From Actinomycetota bacterium (GTDB taxonomy: Bacteria; Actinomycetota; Actinomycetes; Mycobacteriales; Mycobacteriaceae), in contig JAFDWN010000002.1 of NCBI GenBank assembly GCA_018268465.1, forward strand, positions 159,154 to 223,153: a DNA stretch of 64,000 nt, written 5' to 3'. Positions 8,737 to 52,168 of this stretch are shown here, piece by piece. The notes under the pieces were generated by a model. That model did no database searches. It had not been told where the DNA came from and was given only the letters and a program-made list of their open reading frames with translations. Each line of letters starts with the position of its first letter. Position 1 is the stretch's first letter. The translations under genes and the position numbers were made by a program.

Positions 8737-10035
8737 GTGACAGTTACCGATGCCAGACGCCGCACACCCCGCACCCGTATCCACTGGGCATGGGTGATCG
8801 CCGCGGTCAGCTTCGTCGCACTGCTCGGCGCCGCAGGTTTCCGGTCGGTGCCCGGGGTGATGATGAATCCGCTGCACCAGGAGTTCGGCTGGTCGCACGG
8901 CACCGTCGGGCTGGCCATGTCGGTCAACATGATGTTGTTCGGCCTGACCGCCCCGTTCGCGGCGGCGCTGATGGACCGCTTCGGCGTGCGCCCGGTGTTG
9001 ACTGCCGCGCTGCTGCTGATCGCCACGGGCTCGGCAGCCAGCGTCACGATGACGGCGAGTTGGCAGCTGGTGATCCTGTGGGGCGTCCTGGTCGGCATCG
9101 GCACGGGGGCGATCTCGATGGGTTTCGTCGCGACGATCGCCACCCGCTGGTTCGAGGCGCGCCGCGGCCTGGTCACCGGGGTACTCACCGCCGCGAGCGC
9201 GACGGGGCAGCTGATCTTCCTGCCGATCGTCGCCGAGATCACCACCCGTCACGGTTGGCGCTGGGCGTCGCTGCTGGTCGCGGCGTCGGCACTGGCCGTG
9301 GTGCCGCTGGTCGCGGTGTTCATGCGCAACCACCCCCAGGATCTCGGGCTGACGGCATACGGTGCGGCGCCGTCGGCGGCGGCGCCGGAACCGGTGCCGG
9401 CCAGCAGCTTCAGGGCGGCCTTCGACGGACTGCTGATCGGCGCGCGGGTGCGCGTGTTCTGGCTGCTGGCGGCGTCCTTCGCGATCTGCGGGATGACCAC
9501 CAACGGGCTGATCGGCACCCATTTCATCCCCGCGGCCAACGATCACGGCATGCCGACGACCGTGGCCGCCGGACTGCTGGCCACGATCGGCGTCCTCGAC
9601 GTCGCGGGCACGGTGTTCTCGGGGTGGCTGACCGACCGGATCGATCCGCGTGTACTGCTCGTCGTCTACTACACGGGCCGCGGCGTCTCGCTGCTGCTGT
9701 TGCCGTCGCTGCTCTCACCGCACGCCGAACCCAGTACCTGGGTGTTCGTGATCTTCTACGGCCTGGACTGGGTCGCCACCGTGCCACCGACGATCGTGCT
9801 GTGCCGCACCTACTTCGGCACCCGCTCCCCGGTGGTGTTCGGCTGGGTGTTCGCCTCGCATCAGGTCGGCGCGGCGATTGCCGCGGCGGGTGCGGGCAAG
9901 CTGCGCGATCTGCAGGGCGACTACGACATGGCGTTCTACACGGCCGCGGGATTGTGCCTGGTCGCGGCGGTGCTGTGCCTGAGCATCCCGCGCACCCCGC
10001 GGACCGTCGGCGAACCCGCTGCCGACGCCGGCTGA
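8737..10035 (+). CDS. MFS transporter (monocarboxylate porter-like)
   Basis: Major facilitator of 432 aa with twelve predicted membrane segments. The first helix begins HWAWVIAAVSFVALLG, and the loop 2-3 motif is MDRFGVRPVL. The pattern of the N-half (HQEFGWSHGTVGLAMSVNM) is typical of MCT/oxalate-formate-like porters in actinomycetes. GTG 8737 is chosen because it sits about six bases after GCGAGAG and directly before MTVTDARRR; the frame is open further upstream but would run through the promoter and into the divergent regulator gene. Probably controlled by the adjacent GlxA-like protein; substrate unknown. Confidence 0.85.
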   Translation: MTVTDARRRTPRTRIHWAWVIAAVSFVALLGAAGFRSVPGVMMNPLHQEFGWSHGTVGLAMSVNMMLFGLTAPFAAALMDRFGVRPVLTAALLLIATGSAASVTMTASWQLVILWGVLVGIGTGAISMGFVATIATRWFEARRGLVTGVLTAASATGQLIFLPIVAEITTRHGWRWASLLVAASALAVVPLVAVFMRNHPQDLGLTAYGAAPSAAAPEPVPASSFRAAFDGLLIGARVRVFWLLAASFAICGMTTNGLIGTHFIPAANDHGMPTTVAAGLLATIGVLDVAGTVFSGWLTDRIDPRVLLVVYYTGRGVSLLLLPSLLSPHAEPSTWVFVIFYGLDWVATVPPTIVLCRTYFGTRSPVVFGWVFASHQVGAAIAAAGAGKLRDLQGDYDMAFYTAAGLCLVAAVLCLSIPRTPRTVGEPAADAG

Positions 10036-10189
10036 GACCAATCCGATAACCCACAGGTCAGAGCATCAATGGTGGCTGTTCGCCGGGTCGCCGACTTTGC
10101 CGTTACCGATTTGTGCCCTTACCATCCGATGCGGTGCCGCCATTGCGATGCGGCCCGACCAGCGACCTGAACCGCGTGAGGAGCCGAAC

Positions 10190-10975
10190 GTGAAGACTCG
10201 CACCAGCAAGGCACTGGGCGCGACCGTGGGAATTGCCGCGATCGCTCTGTCGTTGCCGTTGGCGATCACCGCCTATGCCCAGCCGCCGGCCGAGCCGACG
10301 TCGGTGGACCAGATCCCCGACCCGCAGGGCCCGCAGTGCGACGCCTTCAAGAAGGAAGTGCCCGGGTACAAGAGCCTGGCCAGCCAGCCGATCGGCTCGG
10401 CGCTCGCCGCCATCCCGATGCTCAGCACATTCAACGCCGCGGTCTCGGGTCAGCTGAACCCCGCGGTCAACATCGTTCCGGTGCTCGACAACGGTCCGTA
10501 TGTGGTGTTCGCGCCGACCAACGACGCGTTCGCCGCGCTGCCGCCGGAGCAGCTCGACGCGCTCAAGGCCGATCCGGCCGCGCTGACGACGCTGGACTAC
10601 TACCACGTCTTCCTGGGACTGCTGGGCCCCGACGACGTGCGGGGTCAGCGGCCGACCCAGCAGGGTGAGCAGATCAAGGTGACGGGCAAGGGCGGCGACA
10701 TCACCGTCAACGACTCCGCCAAGGTGCTCTGCGGCGGGATCCAGGCCAACAACGCCAGGATCTACATCATCGACAAGGTGCTGGATCCGGCGTCTCCGCC
10801 CGAGCCGCTCAGCTCGTCGGGGACGTCCACCACGTCCACCACCTCCACTACCTCCGCCGCGGCGACCGAGCCCGGTGCGGCCGAGGCCACCGTGGAGTCC
10901 ACTGTCGAAACCCCGGCGGACATCAGCATCCCCGAGACCATCACCGAGACGGGCACCGAGACGCCTGCGGCGTAG
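10190..10975 (+). CDS. Fasciclin (FAS1) domain secreted protein
   Basis: Exported protein of 261 aa. A signal peptide (KTRTSKALGATVGIAAIAL, cleavage near AYAQP) precedes a single FAS1 domain at about residues 65-205, marked by the conserved YVVFAPTNDAFAALPPEQL and LDYYHVFLG. The tail is a Ser/Thr-rich linker of TTST repeats and an acidic Thr/Glu end, suggesting a cell-wall-exposed or glycosylated stalk. The family includes the mycobacterial MPT70/MPT83 antigens. GTG 10190 follows GAGGAGCC, a good ribosome-binding site. Confidence 0.85.
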   Translation: MKTRTSKALGATVGIAAIALSLPLAITAYAQPPAEPTSVDQIPDPQGPQCDAFKKEVPGYKSLASQPIGSALAAIPMLSTFNAAVSGQLNPAVNIVPVLDNGPYVVFAPTNDAFAALPPEQLDALKADPAALTTLDYYHVFLGLLGPDDVRGQRPTQQGEQIKVTGKGGDITVNDSAKVLCGGIQANNARIYIIDKVLDPASPPEPLSSSGTSTTSTTSTTSAAATEPGAAEATVESTVETPADISIPETITETGTETPAA

Positions 10976-10988
10976 CGGGGCCGGTGCG

Positions 10989-11255
10989 CTAGCGGCCCGT
11001 GCGTTCGCGGTGCCGGCACCCCGGCCAGCAGCACGGCCGCCGCATACCGTCCTCCAGTTCCTCCTGGGTCCGGCGGATGCGGCGTGCCCGGGTCACCTCT
11101 TGTTTGGCATCCTCGACCCAGCAGATGAACTCGTTGCGGGCCAGCGGTGTGATGTCTTTCCAGGCGGCCAGCGCCGCCGAGTTGGCGATCAGCGCCTTGC
11201 GCAGGTCCGCCGGGAGGGTGTGCACCACCCCGCCGGGTACTCGCGTGCCGCTCAC
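10989..11255 (-). CDS. YdeI/OmdA family small protein
   Basis: Protein of 88 aa similar to the YdeI/OmpD-associated (bacteriocin-protection) family. The signature is the block LPADLRKALIANSAALAAWKD followed by FICWVEDAKQEVTRARRIRR. It ends in a Cys-containing basic tail. GTG 11255 places MSGTRVPGG at the start; a longer version from 11315 is possible. It converges with the fasciclin gene with only 13 bp between stops. Biochemical role unestablished. Confidence 0.7.
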   Translation of the reverse strand: MSGTRVPGGVVHTLPADLRKALIANSAALAAWKDITPLARNEFICWVEDAKQEVTRARRIRRTQEELEDGMRRPCCWPGCRHRERTGR

Positions 11256-11442
11256 CGTCCCGAGACTACCCGCGGCGCCCCGGCGCGAGTTGGACGACCC
11301 GCGCACGGTATCCAAAAGCGAAGGCGCGGAACGTATCTCAACGTTCCTGTTGGTCGCGGCACGCTGTTCGACGGTAGGATCCGACGGATACGCCGCATCG
11401 AAACGCGACTTCGCCAGCGGCCCCGACGTAGAGGAGGTCGCC

Positions 11443-11874
11443 GTGAGCGAGAAAACCGGACCGGCTCTGACCGGCGTTCACCACGTTTCGCTGACGGTCA
11501 CCGATCTCGAGGCCAGCCTGGCGTGGTATCAGCGGGTGTTCCAGACCGAACGGCCGGATCTGAAGGTCCCCCATTACGGGCGTGAGGAGACGGGATACAG
11601 CGTGCTGTTGCCCGAGCCGCGTTCGGGTCTGGTGTTCTCGCTGCATAGCAACACCGGCAACGACGGAGAACGCTTCGACGAGGCCCGCACGGGTCTGGAT
11701 CATGTGTCCTTCGGGGTGAACGGCCGTGCGACGTTGCAGGCCTGGGCGGCGTGGCTGGATGAACTCGGAGTCCCCAACACCGGCATCGTCGACGAAACCG
11801 ATCCGTTCCCGTACTCGACCGTGGTCTTCCGCGACCCCGACAACATCCAGCTGGAGGTCATCGCCGTCGGCTGA
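11443..11874 (+). CDS. VOC superfamily (glyoxalase-like) protein
   Basis: Protein of 143 aa with the paired beta-alpha-beta-beta-beta units of the vicinal oxygen chelate fold. Likely metal ligands are His in HHVSLTV, His in LDHVSFGV and the terminal Glu in NIQLEVIAV. The spacing matches glyoxalase/bleomycin-resistance proteins and small dioxygenase-like enzymes. GTG 11443 follows a strong GAGGAGG at 11431. It stands alone between convergent neighbours, so the substrate cannot be guessed from context. Confidence 0.8.
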   Translation: MSEKTGPALTGVHHVSLTVTDLEASLAWYQRVFQTERPDLKVPHYGREETGYSVLLPEPRSGLVFSLHSNTGNDGERFDEARTGLDHVSFGVNGRATLQAWAAWLDELGVPNTGIVDETDPFPYSTVVFRDPDNIQLEVIAVG

Positions 11875-11953
11875 ACCACCGACGCGTCGAATCAGCTTGG
11901 GCGACACACTGTTTCACTCCAGGCTGCGCTTGCCGGGCCCATCCGCCGGATGG

Positions 11954-12760
11954 CTACCTGGCCTGCCACACCGGTGTGCGCTTTTCGGCGAAGGCACGCG
12001 GTCCCTCCCTGGCGTCCTCGGAGGCCAGCAGCGCGCCGAGGGCACGCGCCGTGCGCGCCCAGCCGGGCTCGTCGCCGGTGACCACATCGTCGTCGACGCC
12101 GTACGCCACCCGCTTGCTGGCCTGAACCGCCAGCGGCGCGTTGGCCGCGACCCGAGCCGCGAGCACCAGCGCAGCGTCCAGAGCCGCATTGCCCCCGGCG
12201 TCGGCGCTGTCGGCGATCTCGTTGATCAGACCCCATGTCAGCGCGTCGGAGGCGGGTATGGGGTCACCGGTGAACATCATCTGCATCGCGATCTTGCGCG
12301 GCAACTGGTCGGCGATGCGGAAGGCGCCACCCGCCGCGGCGATGAGGCCCAGTTTGACCTCGGGCAGCCCGAATACCGCGTGGGTGTCGGCGACCACGAG
12401 ATCACTGGCCAGCGCCAGTTCCGTGCCGCCGCCAAGCGCCAGTCCGTTGACGGCAGCGATGGTGGGCTTGTCGACGAAATGCCTTACGTATCCGGCGAAT
12501 CCCCATTCGGGGTGCTCGGGGTGCAGCAGATTCTCACCGCGGTGGATCGCCTTGATATCGGCTCCCGCACAGAAGGTCCCGCCCGTCCCCGTGAGTACGA
12601 CGACGCGCACCTGCGGATCGCGGTTCGCCCGTTCGAGCGCGTCGCCCAGCGCCGTACTCACCGCGGCGTCGACGGCGTTTCGGGCGTGCGGCCGGTTGAG
12701 GGTGAGGACGGTGACGGCGCCCCGGGTCTCGGTGAGCACCACGTCCGCGGGTTCGGCCAT
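11954..12760 (-). CDS. Enoyl-CoA hydratase/isomerase (crotonase) family
   Basis: Crotonase-fold enzyme of 268 aa. The oxyanion-hole segments are visible: FCAGADIKAI and NGLALGGGTELALASD, with the catalytic-region GLPEVKLGLIAAAGG. The family hydrates or isomerises enoyl-CoA thioesters in beta-oxidation and related pathways. It is divergent from a FadR-like GntR gene with a perfect palindrome between them, so it is probably regulated by that protein in response to an acyl-CoA (inference). Confidence 0.88.
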   Translation of the reverse strand: MAEPADVVLTETRGAVTVLTLNRPHARNAVDAAVSTALGDALERANRDPQVRVVVLTGTGGTFCAGADIKAIHRGENLLHPEHPEWGFAGYVRHFVDKPTIAAVNGLALGGGTELALASDLVVADTHAVFGLPEVKLGLIAAAGGAFRIADQLPRKIAMQMMFTGDPIPASDALTWGLINEIADSADAGGNAALDAALVLAARVAANAPLAVQASKRVAYGVDDDVVTGDEPGWARTARALGALLASEDAREGPRAFAEKRTPVWQAR

Positions 12761-12830
12761 CGCACCGCTCCTTCGGGGTCGATATGCGGCGGTGGGTGAA
12801 CGCCCGATCGCCGACGCCAGTTAGAAGACA

Positions 12831-12849
12831 AAGTTCACTAGGTGAACTT
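12831..12849. promoter_or_regulatory. GntR/FadR-type operator
   Basis: AAGTTCACTAGGTGAACTT is a perfect inverted repeat with 8-bp arms and a 3-bp centre, between the crotonase start (12760) and the GntR start (12943). It is 71 bp from one and 94 bp from the other, and the only strong palindrome there. Likely operator for both divergent transcripts. Confidence 0.65.
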
Positions 12850-12942
12850 ACCGCTTGGGTGGCCGCCGGGCGGGTTCGAGGTGGTTTACTGAGCGGGATC
12901 GCTTGCCGCGAAGCCGGCGGGAATGCCGCACCAGGGAGAATC

Positions 12943-13734
12943 GTGTCACGAACCAGTCCGTCGGCGCCGCTGCTCGGGGCGGACGTGTCGGCCTCGCGCG
13001 CGGCCGTCCGGACCCCGAAGACCGCAGAACTGGTCGCAGGGACCTTACGCCGGATGATCGTGGACGGAACGCTCAAGGACGGCGACTTCCTGCCCAACGA
13101 GGCCGAGCTGATGGCGCATTTCGGCATCAGCCGCCCCACCCTGCGGGAAGCGGTGCGGGTCTTGGAGTCCGAACGTCTCGTCGAAGTGCGGCGCGGGTCG
13201 CGCACCGGTGCGCGGGTGTGCGTGCCGGGTGCGGAGATCGTCGCGCGGCCCGCCGGACTGCTGCTCGAATTGTCCGGTGCCACAGTCGCCGACGTGATGC
13301 TGGCGCAGGCAGCCATCGAACCGATGGCGGCACGGCTGCTGGCCGAATCGGGGGCGGTGGAGGCCTTCGACGAACTCGACCGCATGCTCGGCGAGATGGT
13401 GCCCGCGGGCTGGAAGTCCGAACAACTCGCCGAGGCCACCGGCGCCTTCCATCTGCGCGTCGTGCAACTGTCGGGCAACGAGACGCTGAGCATTGTGGCG
13501 GGCATGCTCAACGAGCTGACCGTGCGGCATACCGCCTTCGTCATGAAGGAGGGCCCGACGGTGTCCAAGGCGGACTACGACAAACTCATGCGGTCCTACC
13601 GCAGGCTGATGCAATTCGTGCGTGCGGGTGACGGAGCCGGGGCCGAGGCGCACTGGCGCAAACACCTCGATACCGCCCGCGGAGCGCTGCTGAAGGGCCT
13701 GGAGGACATCCGGGTCCGCGACGTGGTCAGCTGA
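12943..13734 (+). CDS. GntR family regulator, FadR-like (FCD)
   Basis: Regulator of 263 aa. The winged helix-turn-helix at about residues 25-95 contains LPNEAELMAHFGISRPTLRE and the wing LESERLVEVRRGSRTGARV; the C-terminal all-helical FCD domain begins near VADVMLAQAAIEPMAARLL. FadR-subfamily proteins bind acyl-CoA or small organic acids and release their palindromic operator. GTG 12943 follows GGGAGAA. Divergent from the crotonase gene with the operator at 12831-12849; stop codon lies 4 bp from the convergent DUF3556 stop. Confidence 0.87.
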   Translation: MSRTSPSAPLLGADVSASRAAVRTPKTAELVAGTLRRMIVDGTLKDGDFLPNEAELMAHFGISRPTLREAVRVLESERLVEVRRGSRTGARVCVPGAEIVARPAGLLLELSGATVADVMLAQAAIEPMAARLLAESGAVEAFDELDRMLGEMVPAGWKSEQLAEATGAFHLRVVQLSGNETLSIVAGMLNELTVRHTAFVMKEGPTVSKADYDKLMRSYRRLMQFVRAGDGAGAEAHWRKHLDTARGALLKGLEDIRVRDVVS

Positions 13735-13738
13735 CGGT

Positions 13739-15472
13739 TCACATCCGCACCGGATGCTCGGCGTGCACCGGCACGTCGTCGTCCCAGGGCTGGCGGGCCA
13801 CCATGTCGGCGACACACACGTACCCTCGTTCGAATTCGCCTGTGGCGGCGTCGACCAGCCGGTACCGCTGGATCTTTCGGTGGATCGGCTGGGCGTCGAG
13901 CAGTACCACTCGCACCTCGCCCGGTTCGAACCGGCAGCGTTCCTGCATGGCGGCGATCAACTGTTCGTTGTGCAGATGGCCGTCCCCGAAGTTCCAGCCG
14001 ATCGCCGTGCTGCAGATGCGCTCTCCGTCGGTGATCGTGTAGTCCCCCTCCCGCCGTCCGGCCATGGCCCGGTGTACGAGCGTGAACAGGGCGCGGCCGT
14101 GGGTGTTGAACGCGCGGAATGCGTAACCGAGGTAGATCGGGATCTGCGCGGCCTCCTTGCTGCCGTAGAACCGTTCCAGTTGCGCGGCGGGCATGCTGGC
14201 GATCGCGACCAGCCCCGCGCTGATCTTCGCTTCGGCCGACGCGGTGACGCACCACATCGTGGTATCCCAGTTGCCCGCGTAGTACCGCATTCCGGGCAGG
14301 AAGGAGATCTTGTTCGGGAACACATTGCCCGCGATGACGGTGCCCGCCAGTACGGCGAAGAGAATGGCAACGGGCACAGGGCGGTTGACGTCGGCGATGC
14401 CGACATCGGCGTGGGCGACGAAGAGTGTCAGCACACCGAAGATCATGAAGACGTTCCACTCCAGCGGCACGCCCATCGGGATGGCGGTGAGGATCGCGAG
14501 GTGGAAACAGACCATGACGAACGCGGCCACCGCCGTCACCCAGCCGCCGCCGGAGAAGAACAGCACGAGGGGCACGCACATCTCGACGGCCGTACCGCCG
14601 TGGGCGACCAGCCGCGCCAGACGCCCGGGCCGCAGGTCATCGGGGAAATCCTCGAAGAACAGCCGTTTGAGGAAACGCGGCCGCACCACCGGGCTGTTCG
14701 ACATCATCGTCGAGACCACGAACGGGAAATGTTTGTTCAGCTTCGACGTCGCCGCGCCCAGCCAGATCACCAGCAGGACGACCTTCGCGGCGACGATCAT
14801 GTCGGCGCCGGCGAACAGGAACGTCACCGTCAGCGCGCCGTAGACCTCCCCGCGGGCGGCCAGGAAGATGACCTTGTCACGCAGGCCGAGTACCGTCAGC
14901 AGCGCCAGGACCGCCGCGATCTGCCACCTCGGCAACACGCCGATCTCGGTGCCCAGCGCGGGATCCGGGCCCGTCCCGTCGGAGAACAACGCGACCAGCA
15001 GCACCACCAGCAGCGCCGCGTAGAGCGCCACATCGACCGGTGTGCGTCCGGCGCCCTTGGTGAGCGGCACGCGGGCCGGCCACGGGGGCAGCCGAATGGT
15101 GCCTGGGCGCAGCCAGTACAGGATCGAGCCCAACGGCGGGAAGAACCGGTTGTTCAGCGGGCCGAACCCGCAGCCGAGGCCGACGACCTCGAAGAGCATC
15201 GTGTACAGCACGACCTTCTGGAATACGATCGGCTCCGACCACCACGCGGCCACGTCGGTGAATCCGTCGATGCCCGTGGTGGCCAGCGCGAACAGCCATC
15301 CGCCGAGGATGTAGAGCAGAATCTTGACGACGTAGAACAGATGCAGCGCCACCGGCGTGCCGAAACCCACCTCCGCCCAGTGCCGGGCCATCGGGCGGAT
15401 CTTCTCGGCGCGGGTGCCCTTGCTCCATTCGGCCATGTCGACCACCGGCAGGTTGGGCGTGAGGAATCCCAT
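13739..15472 (-). CDS. DUF3556 polytopic membrane protein
   Basis: Membrane protein of 577 aa of the DUF3556 family found mainly in mycolate-containing actinomycetes. It opens MGFLTPNLPVVDMAEWSKGT, has roughly nine to ten hydrophobic segments between residues 45 and 380, and a soluble C-terminal part of about 190 aa (from PNKISFLPGMRYYAGNWD). Function is unknown. Its start lies four bases from a 32-bp perfect palindrome with a KstR-type core, which links it by inference to sterol or cholesterol catabolism or its membrane handling. Confidence 0.85.
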   Translation of the reverse strand: MGFLTPNLPVVDMAEWSKGTRAEKIRPMARHWAEVGFGTPVALHLFYVVKILLYILGGWLFALATTGIDGFTDVAAWWSEPIVFQKVVLYTMLFEVVGLGCGFGPLNNRFFPPLGSILYWLRPGTIRLPPWPARVPLTKGAGRTPVDVALYAALLVVLLVALFSDGTGPDPALGTEIGVLPRWQIAAVLALLTVLGLRDKVIFLAARGEVYGALTVTFLFAGADMIVAAKVVLLVIWLGAATSKLNKHFPFVVSTMMSNSPVVRPRFLKRLFFEDFPDDLRPGRLARLVAHGGTAVEMCVPLVLFFSGGGWVTAVAAFVMVCFHLAILTAIPMGVPLEWNVFMIFGVLTLFVAHADVGIADVNRPVPVAILFAVLAGTVIAGNVFPNKISFLPGMRYYAGNWDTTMWCVTASAEAKISAGLVAIASMPAAQLERFYGSKEAAQIPIYLGYAFRAFNTHGRALFTLVHRAMAGRREGDYTITDGERICSTAIGWNFGDGHLHNEQLIAAMQERCRFEPGEVRVVLLDAQPIHRKIQRYRLVDAATGEFERGYVCVADMVARQPWDDDVPVHAEHPVRM

Positions 15473-46499: not shown

Positions 46500-46914
46500 T
46501 ATGCCGCCCCCGGGCGAGAGCCTCGTCCTCGACGGGGTTAGTCCGGTCATCCGCTCGGTGCCACTGCTGGCGAACCGGGCCGAAGGACCGTAGCCCGGTT
46601 CCACCAGCCTCAACCGCACGCCGACGAAGCCGAGTTCGAGCGCGATCGACCCGGTGAGACCCTCGATGGCCGCCTTGCTGGCGACGTAGGCGGCGCCAGC
46701 GGCATCGCCGCGAGTGTCACGCTCGACGTGACGTTGACGATCGCACCCGACTGCCGCGTACGCATCTGCGCGATCACCGCCTGAGTCATCGTTATGACAC
46801 CGAAGGAGTTGGTGTCTAACAACTCCCGAATTGCGCCATCGGGGTCGCCTCGAATGCGCCGATGGCGCCGATGATGCCCGCGTTGTCGACGAGGACGGCG
46901 ATGGGTCCGACTCA
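46500..46914 (-). pseudogene. SDR oxidoreductase remnant
   Basis: Minus-strand pieces of a short-chain dehydrogenase: VLVDNAGIIGAIGAFEATPM (about 46900-46850), then after a frameshift DTNSFGVITMTQAVIAQMRT and NVTSSVTLAAMPL, then after another frameshift AAYVASKAAIEGLTGSIALE and LVEPGYGPSARF. Catalytic S-YxxxK residues survive but the frame does not. The N-terminal Rossmann part is absent: similarity stops near 46915, about 70 bp before the methyltransferase start, as if cut by arrival of the restriction-modification genes. Confidence 0.78.
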
Positions 46915-46985
46915 GCGCCGACTTTCCGGCCCCCCGGGGGGTGTCCTAGGCCGGATTGTCGGTGGCGCAGGGCAAGATTCTCACC

Positions 46986-48644
46986 ATGACGTCCGGGGGT
47001 GACACAGCGGCGCTGCGTAAGGCGCGCGGCGCCTTCTTCACCCCAGAGGCGGTCGCCCGATACATCACCGAATGGGCGGTTCGCAGCACCGCAGATCGGA
47101 TCCTCGAGCCCTCATGCGGAGAGGCCGCATTCCTGCTGTCGGCCGTCAACCGCCTGGCCACGCTGCGGTCGGCCCCCGAGGATCAGTACGCCGCGCTCGA
47201 CGGCATCGAGCTGCACCGCGGCTCCGCGCGGGCCGCGCGCAAGCTGCTGCGCGACGCTGGGGTCGACGCCCGCGTGACGGTCGGCGACTTCTTCTGCGTC
47301 GACCCGACCGCCTCGTATGACGTTGTGATCGGCAACCCGCCCTACATCCGGTATCAGGACTTCTCCGGCGCGGCCAGGGCGCGGTCGCGGGAGGCAGCGC
47401 TGCGGGCGGGCGTGGGTTTGACGAATCTCGCCTCCAGCTGGGCGGCGTTCGCGGTGCACTCGGCACTGTTCCTCAAACCCGGCGGTCGGATGGGTCTGGT
47501 TCTGCCAGCCGAACTGCTGAGCGTGAACTACGCCGCCGAGGTCCGCCGGTTCCTGCTGGCGTCATTCGCGCGCGTCGACCTCGTGCTGTTCACCGAGCGG
47601 GTGTTTCCCGACGCTCAGGAGGAGGTGCTGCTCCTGCTGGCCGACGGCTATCTGTCGGGGCCGACCGCGCACGCCTCCGTCTACCAGGCGCGCAACGCCG
47701 CCCACCTGGCGGCGATCCCCGCCGGGCGTACCTGGACACCCACCCGGCCCGAGGAGAAGTGGACACCGTCGCTGCTCTCGGCCGACGCGCTGGACACCTA
47801 CACGGGTCTGCTGTCGAGCGGCGGCTTCACCGTGCTCGAAACCTGGGGTGACACGACGCTGGGCATGGTCACCGGCAACAACAAGTACTTCGCGCTCTCA
47901 CCCGCCCGCGTTGCCGACCTCGGCCTCGAAGCAACCGACGTCTTGCGGCTGTCGCCGCCCGGCAGTCGGCACCTGCGCGGCTTGGCGTTCGGCACCGCCG
48001 CGCACAACGCGCTCGGCCGCAACGGCTCTGCCACCGCGTTGTTCCGGCCGTCGGGCGAGCCGTCGCCGGCAGCGTGGGCGTACATCGCCGCGGGGGAAGC
48101 CGCCGGGGTCCACACCGCGTACAAGTGCCGCGTGCGCACGCCGTGGTGGCGCGTGCCGAACCTGGCCCCGGCCGATCTGCTCCTCACGTATATGAACGCC
48201 GACACCCCCCGGCTGTCGACCAACGCCGCCAGGGCCGCACATCTCAACTCCGTGCACGGCGTCTACCTGGCCCCGAAGGTACGCAAGCTCGGCAAGGCGC
48301 TGCTTCCCCTCGCCTCGCTCACCTCGATGACACTGGTGGGAGCCGAGACGGTGGGGCGCGCGTACGGCGGGGGGATGCTCAAACTGGAGCCCCGCGAGGC
48401 CGACCGCCTGCCGGTGCCGCCACCGGCGCTCGTCGAGGCCGCAACCGATCAGCTCAAGAAGCTCCGCCCGCAGGTCGCCGGGCTTCTGCGCAGCGGCAAC
48501 CTCATCGGCGCCTCGAAGCTGGTCGATGCGGTGCTGCTCGTCGGCGAGCTGGGTATGCAGCGCGCCGACGTGCGGGTTCTGCGGGAGGCACACGCCGAAC
48601 TGACCGCCCGCCGCGTCGCACGGGGGCGTCGTGGCGCGAATTGA
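46986..48644 (+). CDS. N6-adenine DNA methyltransferase (Eco57I/TaqI-like)
   Basis: Gamma-class N6-adenine methyltransferase of 552 aa. Motif X is KARGAFFTPEAVARYI, the AdoMet-binding motif I is EPSCGEAAFLLSAV, and the catalytic motif IV is VIGNPPYIRYQDF; a long C-terminal part (from about residue 270) should recognise the target. An NPPY motif identifies adenine N6 modification. ATG 46986 is used; a TTG 30 bp earlier is possible. Overlaps the downstream nuclease gene by 14 bp, so this is a type II-like restriction-modification pair. Confidence 0.85.
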   Translation: MTSGGDTAALRKARGAFFTPEAVARYITEWAVRSTADRILEPSCGEAAFLLSAVNRLATLRSAPEDQYAALDGIELHRGSARAARKLLRDAGVDARVTVGDFFCVDPTASYDVVIGNPPYIRYQDFSGAARARSREAALRAGVGLTNLASSWAAFAVHSALFLKPGGRMGLVLPAELLSVNYAAEVRRFLLASFARVDLVLFTERVFPDAQEEVLLLLADGYLSGPTAHASVYQARNAAHLAAIPAGRTWTPTRPEEKWTPSLLSADALDTYTGLLSSGGFTVLETWGDTTLGMVTGNNKYFALSPARVADLGLEATDVLRLSPPGSRHLRGLAFGTAAHNALGRNGSATALFRPSGEPSPAAWAYIAAGEAAGVHTAYKCRVRTPWWRVPNLAPADLLLTYMNADTPRLSTNAARAAHLNSVHGVYLAPKVRKLGKALLPLASLTSMTLVGAETVGRAYGGGMLKLEPREADRLPVPPPALVEAATDQLKKLRPQVAGLLRSGNLIGASKLVDAVLLVGELGMQRADVRVLREAHAELTARRVARGRRGAN

Positions 48645-49374
48645 CGACCTGCTCATCGCGGCGATCAAAGCCGCCGGCCCGAAACCCCCCGACGACGCCC
48701 CGCAGGGCCAGAAGAACCCGTGGGGCAACACCATCAGCAACACCCTCGCGCGCGCGATCGCCCAGGAGTTACGCGAGCGGGGCATGGACGGGGCCCGACC
48801 GGGAGAGCCGGGGGACACCGGACTGTCGGGCGCCGAGCGGCGGCTCGCCGGCGGACTCGGCGCCAAGAAGGTCGACGTCACCTGGGCGACCGCCGAATCG
48901 GGCTTGATGCTGGCCTGTTCGGTCAAGACCATCATGTTCCGCGACGGCGTCGGAGGGCACTTTCAGAAGAACCTCACCAACCGGCGCGGCGACCTCCTGT
49001 TCGAGTCGACGACATTGCACCGCCGGTTCCCGTTCGCGGTGGTGGCCGGTTTCTTCTTCTTCGACATCGGTGCGGCCAGTGATCAGACGGCGCGGCGCAA
49101 CAGCACCTTCGAGAACGTCTTCCCCCGGTTCCGCTTGTTCACCGGCCGCGCCGACCCGGCCGACCGCGACGAGCAATTCGAACGGCTGTATGTGCTGTTG
49201 ATCGACTCGAACCCCGCCGCGCCGTCGGTCGTCTGCCACGAGGTGAACAGTCCCGACGAGCCGGTCGCCCTCGGTGTCGTCTTCGACGAGCTCATCGAAC
49301 TGACCGCCGAGCGCAACTTCGACATGTACGAGACGACGGGCGACGGCGCCATCAGGAAAGCCCGCAGCAAATAG
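48631..49374 (+). CDS. Putative restriction endonuclease
   Basis: 247-aa protein. The core KKVDVTWATAESGLMLACSV then KTIMFRD has the Asp-strand-Val-Lys spacing of a PD-(D/E)xK nuclease, followed by GHFQKNLTNRRGDLLFESTT and the FPFAVVAGFFFFD strand. Starts at GTG 48631 inside the methyltransferase 3' end. Tight overlap with an adenine methyltransferase and this core point to the cognate nuclease; the recognition site is unknown. Confidence 0.72.
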   Translation: MARIDDLLIAAIKAAGPKPPDDAPQGQKNPWGNTISNTLARAIAQELRERGMDGARPGEPGDTGLSGAERRLAGGLGAKKVDVTWATAESGLMLACSVKTIMFRDGVGGHFQKNLTNRRGDLLFESTTLHRRFPFAVVAGFFFFDIGAASDQTARRNSTFENVFPRFRLFTGRADPADRDEQFERLYVLLIDSNPAAPSVVCHEVNSPDEPVALGVVFDELIELTAERNFDMYETTGDGAIRKARSK

Positions 49375-49380
49375 GTGTTG

Positions 49381-49405
49381 CGGCTACCCGTTGAACCGGG
49401 ACACC
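49381..49405. repeat. Degenerate copy of ychF 3' end (copy C)
   Basis: CGGCTACCCGTTGAACCGGG on the plus strand: its complement reads like the last codons and stop of ychF (Val-Val-x-Arg-Phe-Asn-x-stop) with one codon missing. Begins 6 bp after the endonuclease gene and precedes the toxin module. Compare 50430-50453 and the true ychF end at 51094-51118. Confidence 0.65.
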
Positions 49406-49456
49406 ACAGTCCGGCACCGAACGACAATTGATCTGCCGATGTACCGGCCGGCCTTG

Positions 49457-50023
49457 TCATCGCGTCAGAGCCTCCGGCGTCCATGCAGGCCAGCGGGGCA
49501 AACCAAGGAGTAGACCGTGCTGGTACGTCGCACACAGCCGGAACGGCGTACGTGCGGTGCTGTTGTCGAAGACCTCCACTACGTCGACGATTCCGATCGC
49601 TACGCGGAGGTGGCCCCACAATCGGTCGTAGCGCTCCCGGATCTTCGCCTCCGGCACACCAGGGCCGCCGCGGCGCACTCGCTCACGAACGCGCTGAACG
49701 GTCAGCTCGACGGGAATCATGACCACGTGCAGATGGACGAGGTAGCCGGCTGCCGCCGCGTCCGAGACAAGCTGAACCTTGCTCGGGTGCGAGAACACGG
49801 TCTCCGAAATGAAGGACTTCCCGGCAGCAATCCGCTCGCGTCGTTGCCCTTCTGCGATCTTTGCGGCCTTGTATGCGTGCTCGCCCTGCGCATCGGGCCA
49901 CCGCGAGGCCGCGATCTCGTCAGCGTTGATGAACGGCAGGCGCGTCGCGGGCGCCAGAACGTCGTGCACGTAGCTCGACTTCCCCGCCCCGTTCGGCCCT
50001 GCGAGCAGATGCAGCAGGGGCAT
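49457..50023 (-). CDS. Zeta-toxin family kinase
   Basis: 188-aa P-loop protein: LAGPNGAGKSSYVHDVLAP (Walker A), NADEIAAS, KSFISETVFSHPSKV, and a C-terminal RYDRLWGHLRVAI basic helix. Zeta toxins phosphorylate UDP-N-acetylglucosamine or related sugars and block wall synthesis. Its ATG shares one base with the antitoxin stop (TGATG at 50025-50021), so translation is coupled. Together a type II-style toxin-antitoxin module. Confidence 0.82.
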   Translation of the reverse strand: MPLLHLLAGPNGAGKSSYVHDVLAPATRLPFINADEIAASRWPDAQGEHAYKAAKIAEGQRRERIAAGKSFISETVFSHPSKVQLVSDAAAAGYLVHLHVVMIPVELTVQRVRERVRRGGPGVPEAKIRERYDRLWGHLRVAIGIVDVVEVFDNSTARTPFRLCATYQHGLLLGLPRWPAWTPEALTR

Positions 50024-50382
50024 CAGTCACGAGCTGGGTGAACGAGGAGATTGCCGTGCTCGTCGATCTCCGAGTAGGACTCGCCAGCCGCCGTGAACGC
50101 GGCTTCGTAGTTCAGCTCACTCCGCAGGGCCGTCACCCGGTCGGCCCATTCCTCGCGAACGATCGCCTGTTCCTGCTCGCCGAGCGAATCATACGAGCCG
50201 GTGCCGGTGAGCACCTTGGTGATCGCGCGGTGGTTCACCCGCGGTGACATTTCCAGCTCACGTCCAATACGCGCCCAGTGCGCGATCTGCTGCGGCACAG
50301 TCCGCGAAGTGACGGCCGCCGCCGCGACGGCGGCCTCGTACACGTCTGCGGGAAGTCGGGTCGGCTGACTGGCCCTGGCCAC
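50023..50382 (-). CDS. ParD-like antitoxin of the zeta toxin
   Basis: 119-aa protein: RLPADVYEAAVAAAAVTSRT, QQIAHWARIGRELEMSP and an acidic C-terminal part (ESYSEIDEHGNLLVHPARD) suited to bind the toxin. The N-terminal half resembles ParD-like/ribbon-helix-helix antitoxins. First gene of the operon; a palindrome lies 11-25 bp upstream. Confidence 0.75.
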   Translation of the reverse strand: MARASQPTRLPADVYEAAVAAAAVTSRTVPQQIAHWARIGRELEMSPRVNHRAITKVLTGTGSYDSLGEQEQAIVREEWADRVTALRSELNYEAAFTAAGESYSEIDEHGNLLVHPARD

Positions 50383-50392
50383 GATCCGAATG

Positions 50393-50407
50393 GTAGCACC
50401 GTGCTAC
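50393..50407. promoter_or_regulatory. Toxin-antitoxin operator
   Basis: GTAGCAC-C-GTGCTAC, a perfect inverted repeat with 7-bp arms and 1-bp centre, 11 bp upstream of the antitoxin start. Antitoxin dimers typically bind such sites to repress their own operon. Confidence 0.65.
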
Positions 50408-50429
50408 GCCACCAACACGCGCGATACTT

Positions 50430-50453
50430 GCTACACGTTGAACCGACTCCACC
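50430..50453. repeat. Degenerate copy of ychF 3' end (copy B)
   Basis: GCTACACGTTGAACCG followed by ACTCCACC matches the ychF terminus at 51095-51118 exactly apart from a 2-bp deletion (24 bases shared). Lies between the zeta module promoter and vapC. Confidence 0.72.
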
Positions 50454-50474
50454 GAATGGCGCAGCCGAACAACG

Positions 50475-50843
50475 TCAGTCTTCGAACAGTCGGATGTCCA
50501 CTTTTTTGGACGCAGCTTTCAACCGTTTGTCCCTGGTCCATAGTCGGGCACCCTCGACCACGGCGACCGAAGCCATCAGATGGGCATCGACAGCGCTCAG
50601 TCCACGCCCCCAGAGTCTTCGCAGCTCAACGAGATGCAGGACCTCGTCATGCCGCGCGGCCGGAAACTGCCACAGGTTCCCCAGCAGGTCGAGCACGATC
50701 TCCCGACGGGCGATCGAACCAAGCGCCAACTCCTCGACAACCAATGGATGGCAGCCGACTCCATCCAGCTGCAACTGTTCGACCAGCCTGGGCTCCGCGG
50801 CGTGAAGATGATCGATCCACACCGCGGTGTCGACCAGAATCAC
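50475..50843 (-). CDS. vapC: VapC-type PIN-domain toxin
   Basis: 122-aa PIN ribonuclease: ILVDTAVWIDHLHAAEPRLV (first catalytic Asp), VVEELALGS (Glu), RGLSAVDAHLMASVA and LWTRDKRLKAASKK (further acidic residues). Overlaps vapB by 4 bp. Corresponds by position next to ychF to M. tuberculosis vapC32 (Rv1114). Confidence 0.85.
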   Translation of the reverse strand: MILVDTAVWIDHLHAAEPRLVEQLQLDGVGCHPLVVEELALGSIARREIVLDLLGNLWQFPAARHDEVLHLVELRRLWGRGLSAVDAHLMASVAVVEGARLWTRDKRLKAASKKVDIRLFED

Positions 50844-51034
50844 TCCGTGGTCCGCCGCCGCGGCGCGGCCTTCGCCTCGGAATCCGATCCGCCCAGCGCG
50901 GCGAGACGGCGGGCACTCTCCACCCGAATGAGTGTCTGCAATCCCTGCTTGAGCAGCGCCACATTTTCGTGCACACCGGTCAACTCGGCAGCCTTGGCGA
51001 GCAACTCGTCATCGATGGTGACCGTGGTTCTCAT
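50840..51034 (-). CDS. vapB: VapB-type antitoxin
   Basis: 64-aa antitoxin with an N-terminal ribbon-helix-helix (MRTTVTIDDELLAKAAELTG) and a charged tail EAKAAPRRRTTE for toxin binding. ATG 51034 has GAGGTG just upstream. A perfect palindrome at 51051-51063 precedes it. Equivalent in position to vapB32 (Rv1113). Confidence 0.83.
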   Translation of the reverse strand: MRTTVTIDDELLAKAAELTGVHENVALLKQGLQTLIRVESARRLAALGGSDSEAKAAPRRRTTE

Positions 51035-51050
51035 TAGGACACCTCCGTGC

Positions 51051-51063
51051 GCATCATTGATGC
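51051..51063. promoter_or_regulatory. vapBC operator
   Basis: GCATCA-T-TGATGC, a perfect inverted repeat 17 bp upstream of vapB, in the 60-bp gap to the ychF stop. Likely bound by the VapB(C) complex. Confidence 0.6.
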
Positions 51064-51093
51064 ATTTCATGGTGCCACAGAGGCGGTGGTCCG

Positions 51094-51118
51094 GCTACAC
51101 GTTGAACCGGAACTCCAC
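51094..51118. repeat. ychF 3' end, parent of copies B and C
   Basis: GGCTACACGTTGAACCGG then AACTCCA: the antisense of the last codons of ychF (stop at 51095-51097). Shared with 50430-50453 and 49381-49405. Confidence 0.72.
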
Positions 51119-52168
51119 CACATCCCCGTCGGCCATGACGTAGTCCTTGCCCTCCATCCGCACCTTGCCCGCGGCTTTGGCGGCGGCCATCGACCCGGCG
51201 TCGACCAGGTCGTCGAACGACACGATCTCGGCCTTGATGAAACCCTTCTCGAAGTCGGAGTGGATCACCCCGGCCGCCTTGGGGGCGGTATCGCCCTGGT
51301 GAATCGTCCAGGCCCGGGCTTCTTTCGGGCCTGCGGTCAGATAGGTCTGCAGCTTGAGCGTGTGGAATCCCGCCCGTGCCAGCGCGTCCAGTCCGCGTTC
51401 GGACTGCCCGATCGATTCGAGCAGCTCGGCGGCGGATTCGTCGTCGAGTTCCTGCAGCTCGGCCTCGATCTTGGCGTCCAGGAACACCGCGTCGGCCGGC
51501 GCCACCAACTCCCGCAGCGAGGCGACCCGCGCCTCGTCGGTGAGGACGGCCTCGTCGGCGTTGAACACGTACAGGAACGGCTTGGTGGTCAGCAGGTTCA
51601 ACTCACGCAGCAGCGTGGTGTCCGCGCCCGCACCGAATAGGGTCGTGCCGCTGTTGAGCACCTCCTGGGCCGCCACGGCGGCGTCGTACACCGGCTTGCG
51701 GTCCTTGTGGGTGCGGGCCTCCTTCTCCAGCCGCGGCACAGCCCGCTCCAACGTCTGCATGTCGGCGAGGATCAGCTCGGTCTCGATCACCTCGATGTCG
51801 GACCGCGGATCGACCCGCCCGTCGACATGCACCACGTCGTCGTCGGTGAACACCCGCACCACCTGGCAGACGGCATCGCATTCGCGGATGTTGGCGAGGA
51901 ACTTGTTGCCGAGGCCCGCCCCCTCCGACGCGCCCTTGACGATGCCGGCGATGTCGACGAACGTCACCGGCGCCGGCACCGTCTTCTCGGATCCGAACAG
52001 CGTCGCGAGCTGGTCGAGCCGGGGATCCGGCAGCGGAACCACGCCCTCGTTCGGTTCGATGGTCGCGAACGGATAGTTGGCTGCCAGCACGTTGTTGCGC
52101 GTCAGCGCATTGAACAGAGTCGACTTTCCGACGTTCGGCAAACCGACGATTCCCAGGTTCAGGCCCAC
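51095..52168 (-). CDS. ychF: Redox-regulated ATPase YchF (Obg family)
   Basis: 357 aa, standard length. GLPNVGKSTLFNALT (P-loop), FVDIAGIVKGASEGAGLGNK (switch), coiled coil around residues 130-200, and the TGS-like C-terminal domain ending DVVEFRFNV. YchF/OLA1 proteins prefer ATP over GTP and associate with ribosomes. Orthologue of Rv1112 by synteny (ispH, Rv1111c-like and vapBC neighbours). The 3' end is the source of the two scars in the accessory region. Confidence 0.95.
   Translation of the reverse strand: MGLNLGIVGLPNVGKSTLFNALTRNNVLAANYPFATIEPNEGVVPLPDPRLDQLATLFGSEKTVPAPVTFVDIAGIVKGASEGAGLGNKFLANIRECDAVCQVVRVFTDDDVVHVDGRVDPRSDIEVIETELILADMQTLERAVPRLEKEARTHKDRKPVYDAAVAAQEVLNSGTTLFGAGADTTLLRELNLLTTKPFLYVFNADEAVLTDEARVASLRELVAPADAVFLDAKIEAELQELDDESAAELLESIGQSERGLDALARAGFHTLKLQTYLTAGPKEARAWTIHQGDTAPKAAGVIHSDFEKGFIKAEIVSFDDLVDAGSMAAAKAAGKVRMEGKDYVMADGDVVEFRFNV

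Follow-up and report, generated by a model that had tools for sequence, protein, structure and literature searches.

The 3' end of ychF as a likely attachment site for mobile elements and toxin-antitoxin cassettes in a mycobacterial genome and its relatives

The described systems closest in mode of working to the locus considered here are the staphylococcal and enterococcal cassette chromosomes (SCC and ECC), which sit at the 3' end of rlmH. Large serine recombinases (LSRs) act there on an attachment site, attB, in the 3' region of this conserved housekeeping gene; the att sites are about 50 bp long with imperfect inverted repeats, and remnants with attL and attR are described (PMC6222049). 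The present locus lies in a stretch of 64,000 nucleotides ("the window") of a Mycobacteriaceae genome (Actinomycetota bacterium, assembly GCA_018268465.1, contig JAFDWN010000002.1, positions 159,154 to 223,153, forward strand), in which the last codons of the gene ychF are repeated twice downstream. In our reading, mobile elements have repeatedly taken the ychF 3' end as their attB, and the two additional copies are scars of a vapBC and a parD-zeta cassette; we put the probability of this reading at about 0.85. Judged from sequence comparison, copies of the gene end mark cassette edges, and some cassettes occupy different array positions in different species; LSR elements of prophage- or satellite-like appearance and, separately, tyrosine-integrase elements likewise end on copies at ychF. 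The features that carry the argument are the following.

51095..52168, minus strand: ychF, the attachment-site host gene (Pfam PF06071, 9.9e-39; PF01926, 7.2e-22)
51095..51118, minus strand: ychF 3' end, putative attB-type site, with the likely recombination axis in codons GTG GTG GAG
50431..50477, minus strand: second copy with P-type left half (50453-50477), a putative attR-type scar whose right half has a 2-bp deletion
49384..49427, minus strand: third copy (49384-49407, 21/24) with degenerate left half (49408-49427); site model E 0.002
50431..51094, minus strand: cassette 1, VapBC with trailing copy; the same unit, with edges at copies, occurs in loci L162 (89.7%) and L165 (84.6%)
50840..51070, minus strand: VapB antitoxin (PF09957, 6.8e-11)
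50475..50843, minus strand: VapC toxin, PIN domain (PF01850, 2.1e-5; NCBIfam VapC, 6e-5, under its cut-off)
49384..50430, minus strand: cassette 2, ParD-like/zeta with trailing copy; copies bound it in the window
50023..50382, minus strand: ParD-like antitoxin (PF11903, 2e-14)
49457..50023, minus strand: zeta-type toxin kinase (PF06414, 9.7e-12)

On its own strand, the last 24 bases of ychF, GTGGAGTTCCGGTTCAACGTGTAG (51095-51118), encode VEFRFNV-stop, and the gene itself is closest to mycobacterial ychF. A preliminary description of this DNA, made from the letters alone, had claimed that these codons and the stop reappear twice downstream and bracket the vapBC and zeta modules. Both copies are confirmed: the second (about 50431-50454, +640 from ychF) is the ychF end minus 2 bp, the deletion that had been noticed as a 2-bp gap, and the third (49384-49407, +1687) shares 21/24 bases with it, while coordinates and Pfam matches place the two modules between them. 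The repeat had been taken to be 24 bp long. The copies do match this 24-bp end, but the repeat extends further left, where the second copy runs into a second half-site of non-ychF sequence and the third shows the same half-site in degenerate form.

The copies are specific to this address. The pattern GCTACACGTTGAACCG, at up to three mismatches, has three matches in the window against 0.47 expected, a number reached by 1 of 100 shuffles, and GCTACNCGTTGAACCG has exactly three matches in the genome of 6,875,363 bp (72 contigs), every one at the ychF locus; the reversed GCTACNCGTTGAACCG pattern has none in the same genome. A site model of about 50 bp, built from 23 sequences that include the second window copy, returns E values of 4e-11 for the second copy, 4e-8 for the ychF end and 0.002 for the third copy, and a whole-genome scan with it gives nothing above background beyond these three sites (next best place 0.25). 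Chance matches elsewhere in the genome, a possibility raised with the initial proposal, were looked for, and the copies occur only at ychF.

In relatives, the exact motif is present in 19/396 same-genus genomes, with three copies in the window's own genome only. It is rare in the genus because synonymous codon choice in the ychF end varies, and the scan of each locus therefore used the ychF end of that same locus and reached up to 8 kb downstream. The expectation that related genomes would carry the 24-bp motif at variable modules looked negative in the exact search, but the own-end scans do find copies: of the same-genus loci, the nearest 60 include 18 with at least one further copy and 7 with two or more; the YchF C-terminus is altered in 6, and 21 show either a copy or an altered tail. 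The corresponding counts for 20 hand-picked loci are 9, 2, 8 and 13, and reversed and reverse-complement control sequences found 0/80 each over these 80 loci. Among 80 named ychF loci, copies are present in 8/18 mycobacterial and 16/62 other actinobacterial ones (controls 0), the copy-bearing records including Nocardia, Rhodococcus, Dietzia, Corynebacterium, Janibacter, Prauserella and Arthrobacter. Environmental strains of Rhodococcus (L074), Dietzia (L095) and Janibacter (L076) are among those that have arrays. The longest arrays were noted in L206 (copies at +180, +1015 and +1641) and L211 (+645, +1367, +4814 and +7462). The Corynebacterium jeikeium record L070 has four ychF-end copies within 6.4 kb (9057-15459), and two similar open reading frames lie there in separate units (about 9084-9497 and 14333-14917).

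That the copies are edges of cassettes was apparent when the downstream regions of 158 loci (161 minus 3 duplicates) were compared, all against each other. Loci with copies share 524 DNA matches of 250 bp or longer, and 22 of these matches stop no more than 6 bp from the end of a copy in both partners; the 22 pairs stem from 11 loci and are not independent. Random placement gave a mean of 0.002 and a maximum of 1 (1000 placements), and seven shifts gave 0. The window VapBC unit begins to align 1-2 bp past the ychF stop and aligns until the second copy ends; its partners, at 3708-4376 in L162 (where the copy left of the unit is degenerate) and 716-1384 in L165, are both distant from ychF. Two further units change array position and keep both edges, a methyltransferase unit (L165, L211) and an HNH-like unit (L149, L174; labelled by eye). 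A HigBA-like unit starts 1 base past a copy or ychF in Rhodococcus (L074), Dietzia (L095), Mycolicibacter (L033) and a same-genus locus (L146), and a unit in Corynebacterium L070 shares its first bases.

Filled and unfilled sites can also be compared, as had been suggested for genomes lacking a module. In 40 alignments the sequence directly after ychF in one genome equals the sequence after the far copy in another; 25 of these 40 involve a partner without a detected copy, and some copy-less partners hold a cassette with a decayed far copy, as L190 does with vapBC, so that they do not count as genuinely empty. In the cleanest pair, L177 has beyond its +1328 copy the sequence that directly follows ychF in L170, at 86.7% identity and with the edge placed to within 2 bp, whereas comparisons with L137 agree at the edges only within about 20 bp. 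Cassette edges at copies, reuse of cassettes at varied array positions and these filled and unfilled sites uphold the idea of serial insertion at the ychF 3' end. The other half of that proposal, duplication of the gene terminus, does not hold, as the copies, taken together, contain no ychF sequence further upstream than about base -30 and some have an integrase half-site instead. Local tandem duplication, or chance, hardly deserves credence. The copies are indeed similar to the end of ychF, and a few of them (L196, L201 and L211 at +1367) appear by eye to run slightly further into ychF-like sequence and look like B|B'; yet the three matches in 6.9 Mb are all adjacent, the 80 control scans are empty, and cassettes shared between genomes are edged by copies. 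Tandem duplication was rejected on copy length.

Between copies, 76 units were delimited in 52/158 loci, with a median of 1.1 kb and 45 units below 1.5 kb. Cargo was annotated for 100 of 124 predicted proteins in units of up to 3.5 kb, and among the 25 commonest of 124 families listed, the leading Pfam families are HTH_3 (6), PIN (6), methyltransferases (5) and Abhydrolase_6 (4), followed by DUF1801, SnoaL_2 and VapB (3 each) and Phd/YefM and HigB-like (2 each). The PADLOC models AbiD and PifA matched one protein each. In the window, VapB with VapC and the ParD-like protein with zeta pair antitoxin and toxin genes, as in type II toxin-antitoxin modules predicted from Pfam matches.

The preliminary description had called the copies att-like scars, and recombinases indeed adjoin such copies in relatives. 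Viral contigs scanned for the ychF end gave 10 loci, of which five contain ychF sequence and are ordinary gene ends and two (L255, L259) were left unassigned; in L251, L253 and L257 an LSR starts about 45 bp from the copy. Resolvase and Recombinase domains were found in the LSRs of L251, L253 and L300. With the L257 enzyme as query, 42/297 same-genus genomes match at E <= 1e-60. Among the 30 loci listed, a perfect copy lies beside the LSR in 11 of the 12 closest matches versus 0 of the 18 others, which include a 57% fragment (L293). The distance from copy to LSR start is 25-42 bp in ten loci and about 860 bp in L271; the near copy of L272 emerged in inspection of the junctions, the scan of LSR loci having given a farther one. 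Eleven genomes have ychF and the LSR on one contig, and there the downstream distance from ychF to the LSR is within 9.7-17 kb (G045 has its LSR in two pieces). In 8/8 LSR genomes tested, the ychF alignment ends at base 1061-1064 of 1074 and YchF terminates in a different, mostly lysine-rich tail. Two sampled elements carry a terminase (L300) and a primase-polymerase (L298), hence their prophage- or satellite-like appearance. Rewritten YchF C-termini, for example FRHGATTKPSK and FRFGTTSTSKG, were also noted in L138, L148, L162-L164, L176, L192-L198, L201 and L306-L313. On the L257 viral contig, only a single ychF-end copy separates a tyrosine-integrase gene from an LSR element; the latter has a terminase gene and, judged by eye, genes like those for portal and capsid proteins.

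Some of the cassette copies are preceded by another conserved half, whose consensus, TGACGTTNATCGGCGACGGAA-NGTG, was derived from 23 sites chosen by eye out of 81. A weight matrix made from these 23 cassette left halves, of which two score negative when left out of the matrix, scores LSR-adjacent halves at 20.9-25.2 in 6/12, 1.6-9.9 in five and -1.5 in one; four tyrosine-integrase ends fall between -28.7 and -33.6 and none of 66 ychF left halves exceeds 3.0, the random 99.9% point being 3.2 in a pool that contained a few true sites. In L257, the LSR and a cassette-type left half are found at the same copy.

The two halves differ in the placement of a short motif, counted from the axis TGG|TGGAG. 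TCAACGT stands at +13 in 78/81 right halves, by which the sites were selected, and at +18 in 21/81 left halves, which played no part in selection, versus 0.83 expected from shuffles (the 21 include related cassettes). Right halves of altered tails have it at +18 in 8/14 (at least 5/7 bases), and the other six show 4/7 at 17-18. For serine integrases, the zinc-ribbon motif is placed at 16-24 in attP and 11-19 in attB, a shift of 5 bp (PMC3783163). The +18 and +13 positions match this published shift, so that window-type copies would read P|B' (attR-type) and altered tails B|P' (attL-type). A P|P' junction is found next to the LSR of L271, as would be expected if a later insert had entered the attR of an LSR element.

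A second enzyme family is found at the site, a phage-type tyrosine integrase (PF00589) oriented towards ychF. An order-wide search matched it in 13/200 genomes, beside a ychF-end copy in 10/11 matches outside the window's genus (9 of these 10 loci contain ychF itself; L246 is the exception). Within the genus it matched 16/392 genomes and sits at a ychF-end copy in 3 of 12 loci listed, plus one decayed copy; it is also found at four named ychF loci, and a phylum-wide draw matched 3/296 genomes, the single new locus lying away from ychF. Elements with int adjacent to the gene end and a far core repeat occur in L052 (Amycolatopsis), L071 (Blastococcus), L231 and, decayed, L232. The elements of this integrase have just the right part of the site in common. 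In the integrase tree, ychF-site and other integrases cluster (2 changes versus 10 expected from shuffles) without forming one clade each. The element at 7104-9344 of L231 carries an ATPase-like gene followed by a second gene, by eye like a two-gene defence pair. The window's own genome encodes on contig C34 (L224, 944-1843) an intact tyrosine integrase, near the contig start and 53-56% identical to the ychF-site enzyme.

Given this adjacency to ychF-end copies in most order-wide and some genus loci, the tyrosine integrase rather than an LSR might be held to have placed the window cassettes. We regard this as very improbable: the far ends of the four scored elements of this integrase are without the cassette left half-site, and the C34 homologue groups with integrases not found at ychF. 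The tyrosine integrase was rejected as the window-cassette recombinase on these two grounds.

The arrays of single-gene units, each with a site at its 3' end, and the nested inverted repeats seen by eye in that site invite comparison with capture by an integron through folded single-strand attC sites, an explanation to which we give next to no weight. RNAalifold finds 0 consensus pairs over 23 sites, on which ground integron-type folding was rejected; no integron integrase was found, the ychF-site tyrosine integrase falling far under the integron-model cut-offs; and the motif shifted by 5 bp fits serine integrases.

With the axis placed within the codons GTG GTG GAG, an LSR element would insert as B|P' (attL, with altered YchF tail) at one end and P|B' (attR) at the other, and LSR elements account for attL and attR. 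Window-type cassettes would hold one P-type and one B-type half (P|B'); the arrival of a cassette that carries P|B' would therefore return the FNV-stop end to ychF and leave P|B' on the far side. Ordinary recombination of attB with attP does not yield cassettes that combine a P and a B half next to an unaltered ychF. We consider it slightly the better bet that an LSR of the ychF-specific clade inserts window-type cassettes in trans, on hybrid sites, and prefer this to the trimming of LSR elements.

In the trimming account, which we think rather unlikely, the cassettes are what decay has left of complete LSR or tyrosine-integrase elements that inserted one after another and kept only the cargo gene by the far site. 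Consistent with it are integrase elements in the same arrays (L231 reads ychF, methyltransferase cassette, copy, int, copy), a decayed int in L158/L232, and the sequence before the far copy of L271, downstream of its LSR, which is nearly that before the L197 copy. However, the vapBC (window, L162, L165), methyltransferase (L165, L211) and HNH-like (L149, L174) units keep their edges within a few bases at different positions, so that movement as a unit is needed after any trimming, and the FNV end of YchF is intact beside window-type cassettes, yet altered in the LSR genomes tested. Insertion in trans could be part of something wider. With less confidence than an even chance would warrant, we propose that the ychF 3' end of Actinomycetota may be a general cassette platform, a serine-recombinase counterpart of the integron, at which phage-satellite LSRs would insert circular P|B' cassettes in trans. 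The circles would hold one or two genes (toxin-antitoxin, defence or metabolic), each arrival restoring the gene end and regenerating the target.

A number of observations weigh against attB use by mobile elements, or against parts of it. The statement that no integrase or transposase is nearby was right for the window, where homologues of both recombinase families are absent (best E 0.63), and the own genome has no LSR of the ychF-site clade at E <= 1e-60. L278 is within the 12 closest LSR matches and has no copy, and in 39/60 nearest loci both a copy and an altered tail are lacking. The zeta cassette and the genes beyond it have no match in the other fetched loci. Among LSR-adjacent halves, TCAACGT stands at +18 in 6/12 at 5/7 or better and in two more at 4/7; it is missing there in L268, L273, L277 and L253. 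Likewise 60/81 left halves are without the motif at +18 and 43 without it at any offset (5/7); most copies are without a clear P half, so that more than one route must exist. By eye, L268, L273 and L277 show GCAACAA at the +18 position. The pairing that serine integrases recombine is attB with attP, to the exclusion of others (PMC3783163), and for this reason insertion of P|B' cassettes in trans falls outside known chemistry. Finally, cassette and host divergence are alike in most pairs, which leaves recent transfer without support; the HNH-like unit is 94.3% identical versus 90.6% for a 234-bp piece of ychF. Much of the cassette spread may, on these identities, be old. Since no LSR of the clade was found in the genome, neither enzyme is in the window and the copies are damaged, the window array is probably a fossil.

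Past the outermost copy lies one further pair of genes.

46956..49374, plus strand: methyltransferase gene and partner (first: PF02384, PF22837, PF07669; second: no Pfam match)

The methyltransferase is of the Eco57I-like N6 type, overlaps its partner by a few bases and lies on the strand opposite to ychF; by sequence, the two are probably a restriction-modification or related pair. Such a pair had been placed beyond the outer copy, where it indeed sits, but it has no bracketing copies and its membership in the array is without support. Beyond +1711 from ychF no DNA match was found in the fetched loci, hence no empty-site counterpart for the window lineage. A short open reading frame at 46610-46822, beside the methyltransferase start, resembles by eye a short-chain dehydrogenase fragment.

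Use of the ychF end by mobile elements would explain how toxin-antitoxin and accessory modules build up, in mycobacteria and in further Actinomycetota, at a single address that has no transposase or integrase close by. It supplies a rule for cassette edges in any genome, namely its own ychF end plus the P-type left half where present. Integration rewrites the C-terminus of a universal GTPase, YchF, and the LSRs with their ychF sites are candidate natural attP/attB pairs. If insertion in trans is true, the locus is a gene-cassette platform built on a serine recombinase.

The resemblance to SCC and ECC is one of working and not of membership: ychF elements too lie between att sites in direct repeat, at the 3' end of a gene. 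The target is ychF (PF06071) instead of rlmH, and one LSR lies by the site instead of CcrAB. Against the CcrA/B/C NCBIfam models the ychF LSRs score 40-89 bits where the cut-offs are 700-900, a weak similarity. Two sampled elements carry terminase or primase genes and many units are of 0.5-1.5 kb with one or two genes; in addition, the YchF C-terminus is altered, a tyrosine-integrase family uses the same site, and the hosts are Actinomycetota. Tandem composites and recombinase-less pseudo-SCC do occur among SCC. As to large serine integrase systems in general, an LSR gene beside the att site is found in relatives but not in the window or its genome (E <= 1e-60), and the 5-bp zinc-ribbon shift is found but not in 4/12 LSR-adjacent halves or in most other left halves.

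In mycobacteria, phiRv1 is a prophage-like element with a serine integrase. A survey of mycobacterial prophages describes candidate phage-inducible chromosomal islands with serine integrases (PMC10654092), which the LSR elements resemble in their size of about 10-17 kb and their terminase or replication genes. They differ from the described candidates in their site, the ychF 3' end, although overlap with the survey's attB Table S2 is possible; "ychF" occurs 0 times in its main text, that table lying outside the count. A literature search, with ychF mandatory in part and with most subscription journals and Table S2 of PMC10654092 outside it, returned no paper in which the ychF 3' end serves as an integration site. 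The pneumococcal prophage attB described in PMC6375853 and PMC8637289 shares ychF as a neighbour gene, but is found upstream, in the gap that separates ychF from the gene before it, with an effect on the promoter.

Like integrons, the ychF locus strings together small cassettes that carry a recombination site at one of their ends; unlike integrons, it showed no integron integrase and no folded site, and its target is a housekeeping gene end. The ychF-site tyrosine integrase reaches 39-54 bits with integron-integrase models whose cut-offs are 265-435, and the window has no homologue of this enzyme, the IntI model not having been run genome-wide. Non-autonomous segments between attachment sites, in tandem, are known from cis-mobilizable elements (CIMEs) and composite integrative elements. 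The ychF arrays share this arrangement and differ in that their units hold one or two genes, some recurring with the same edges at different positions.

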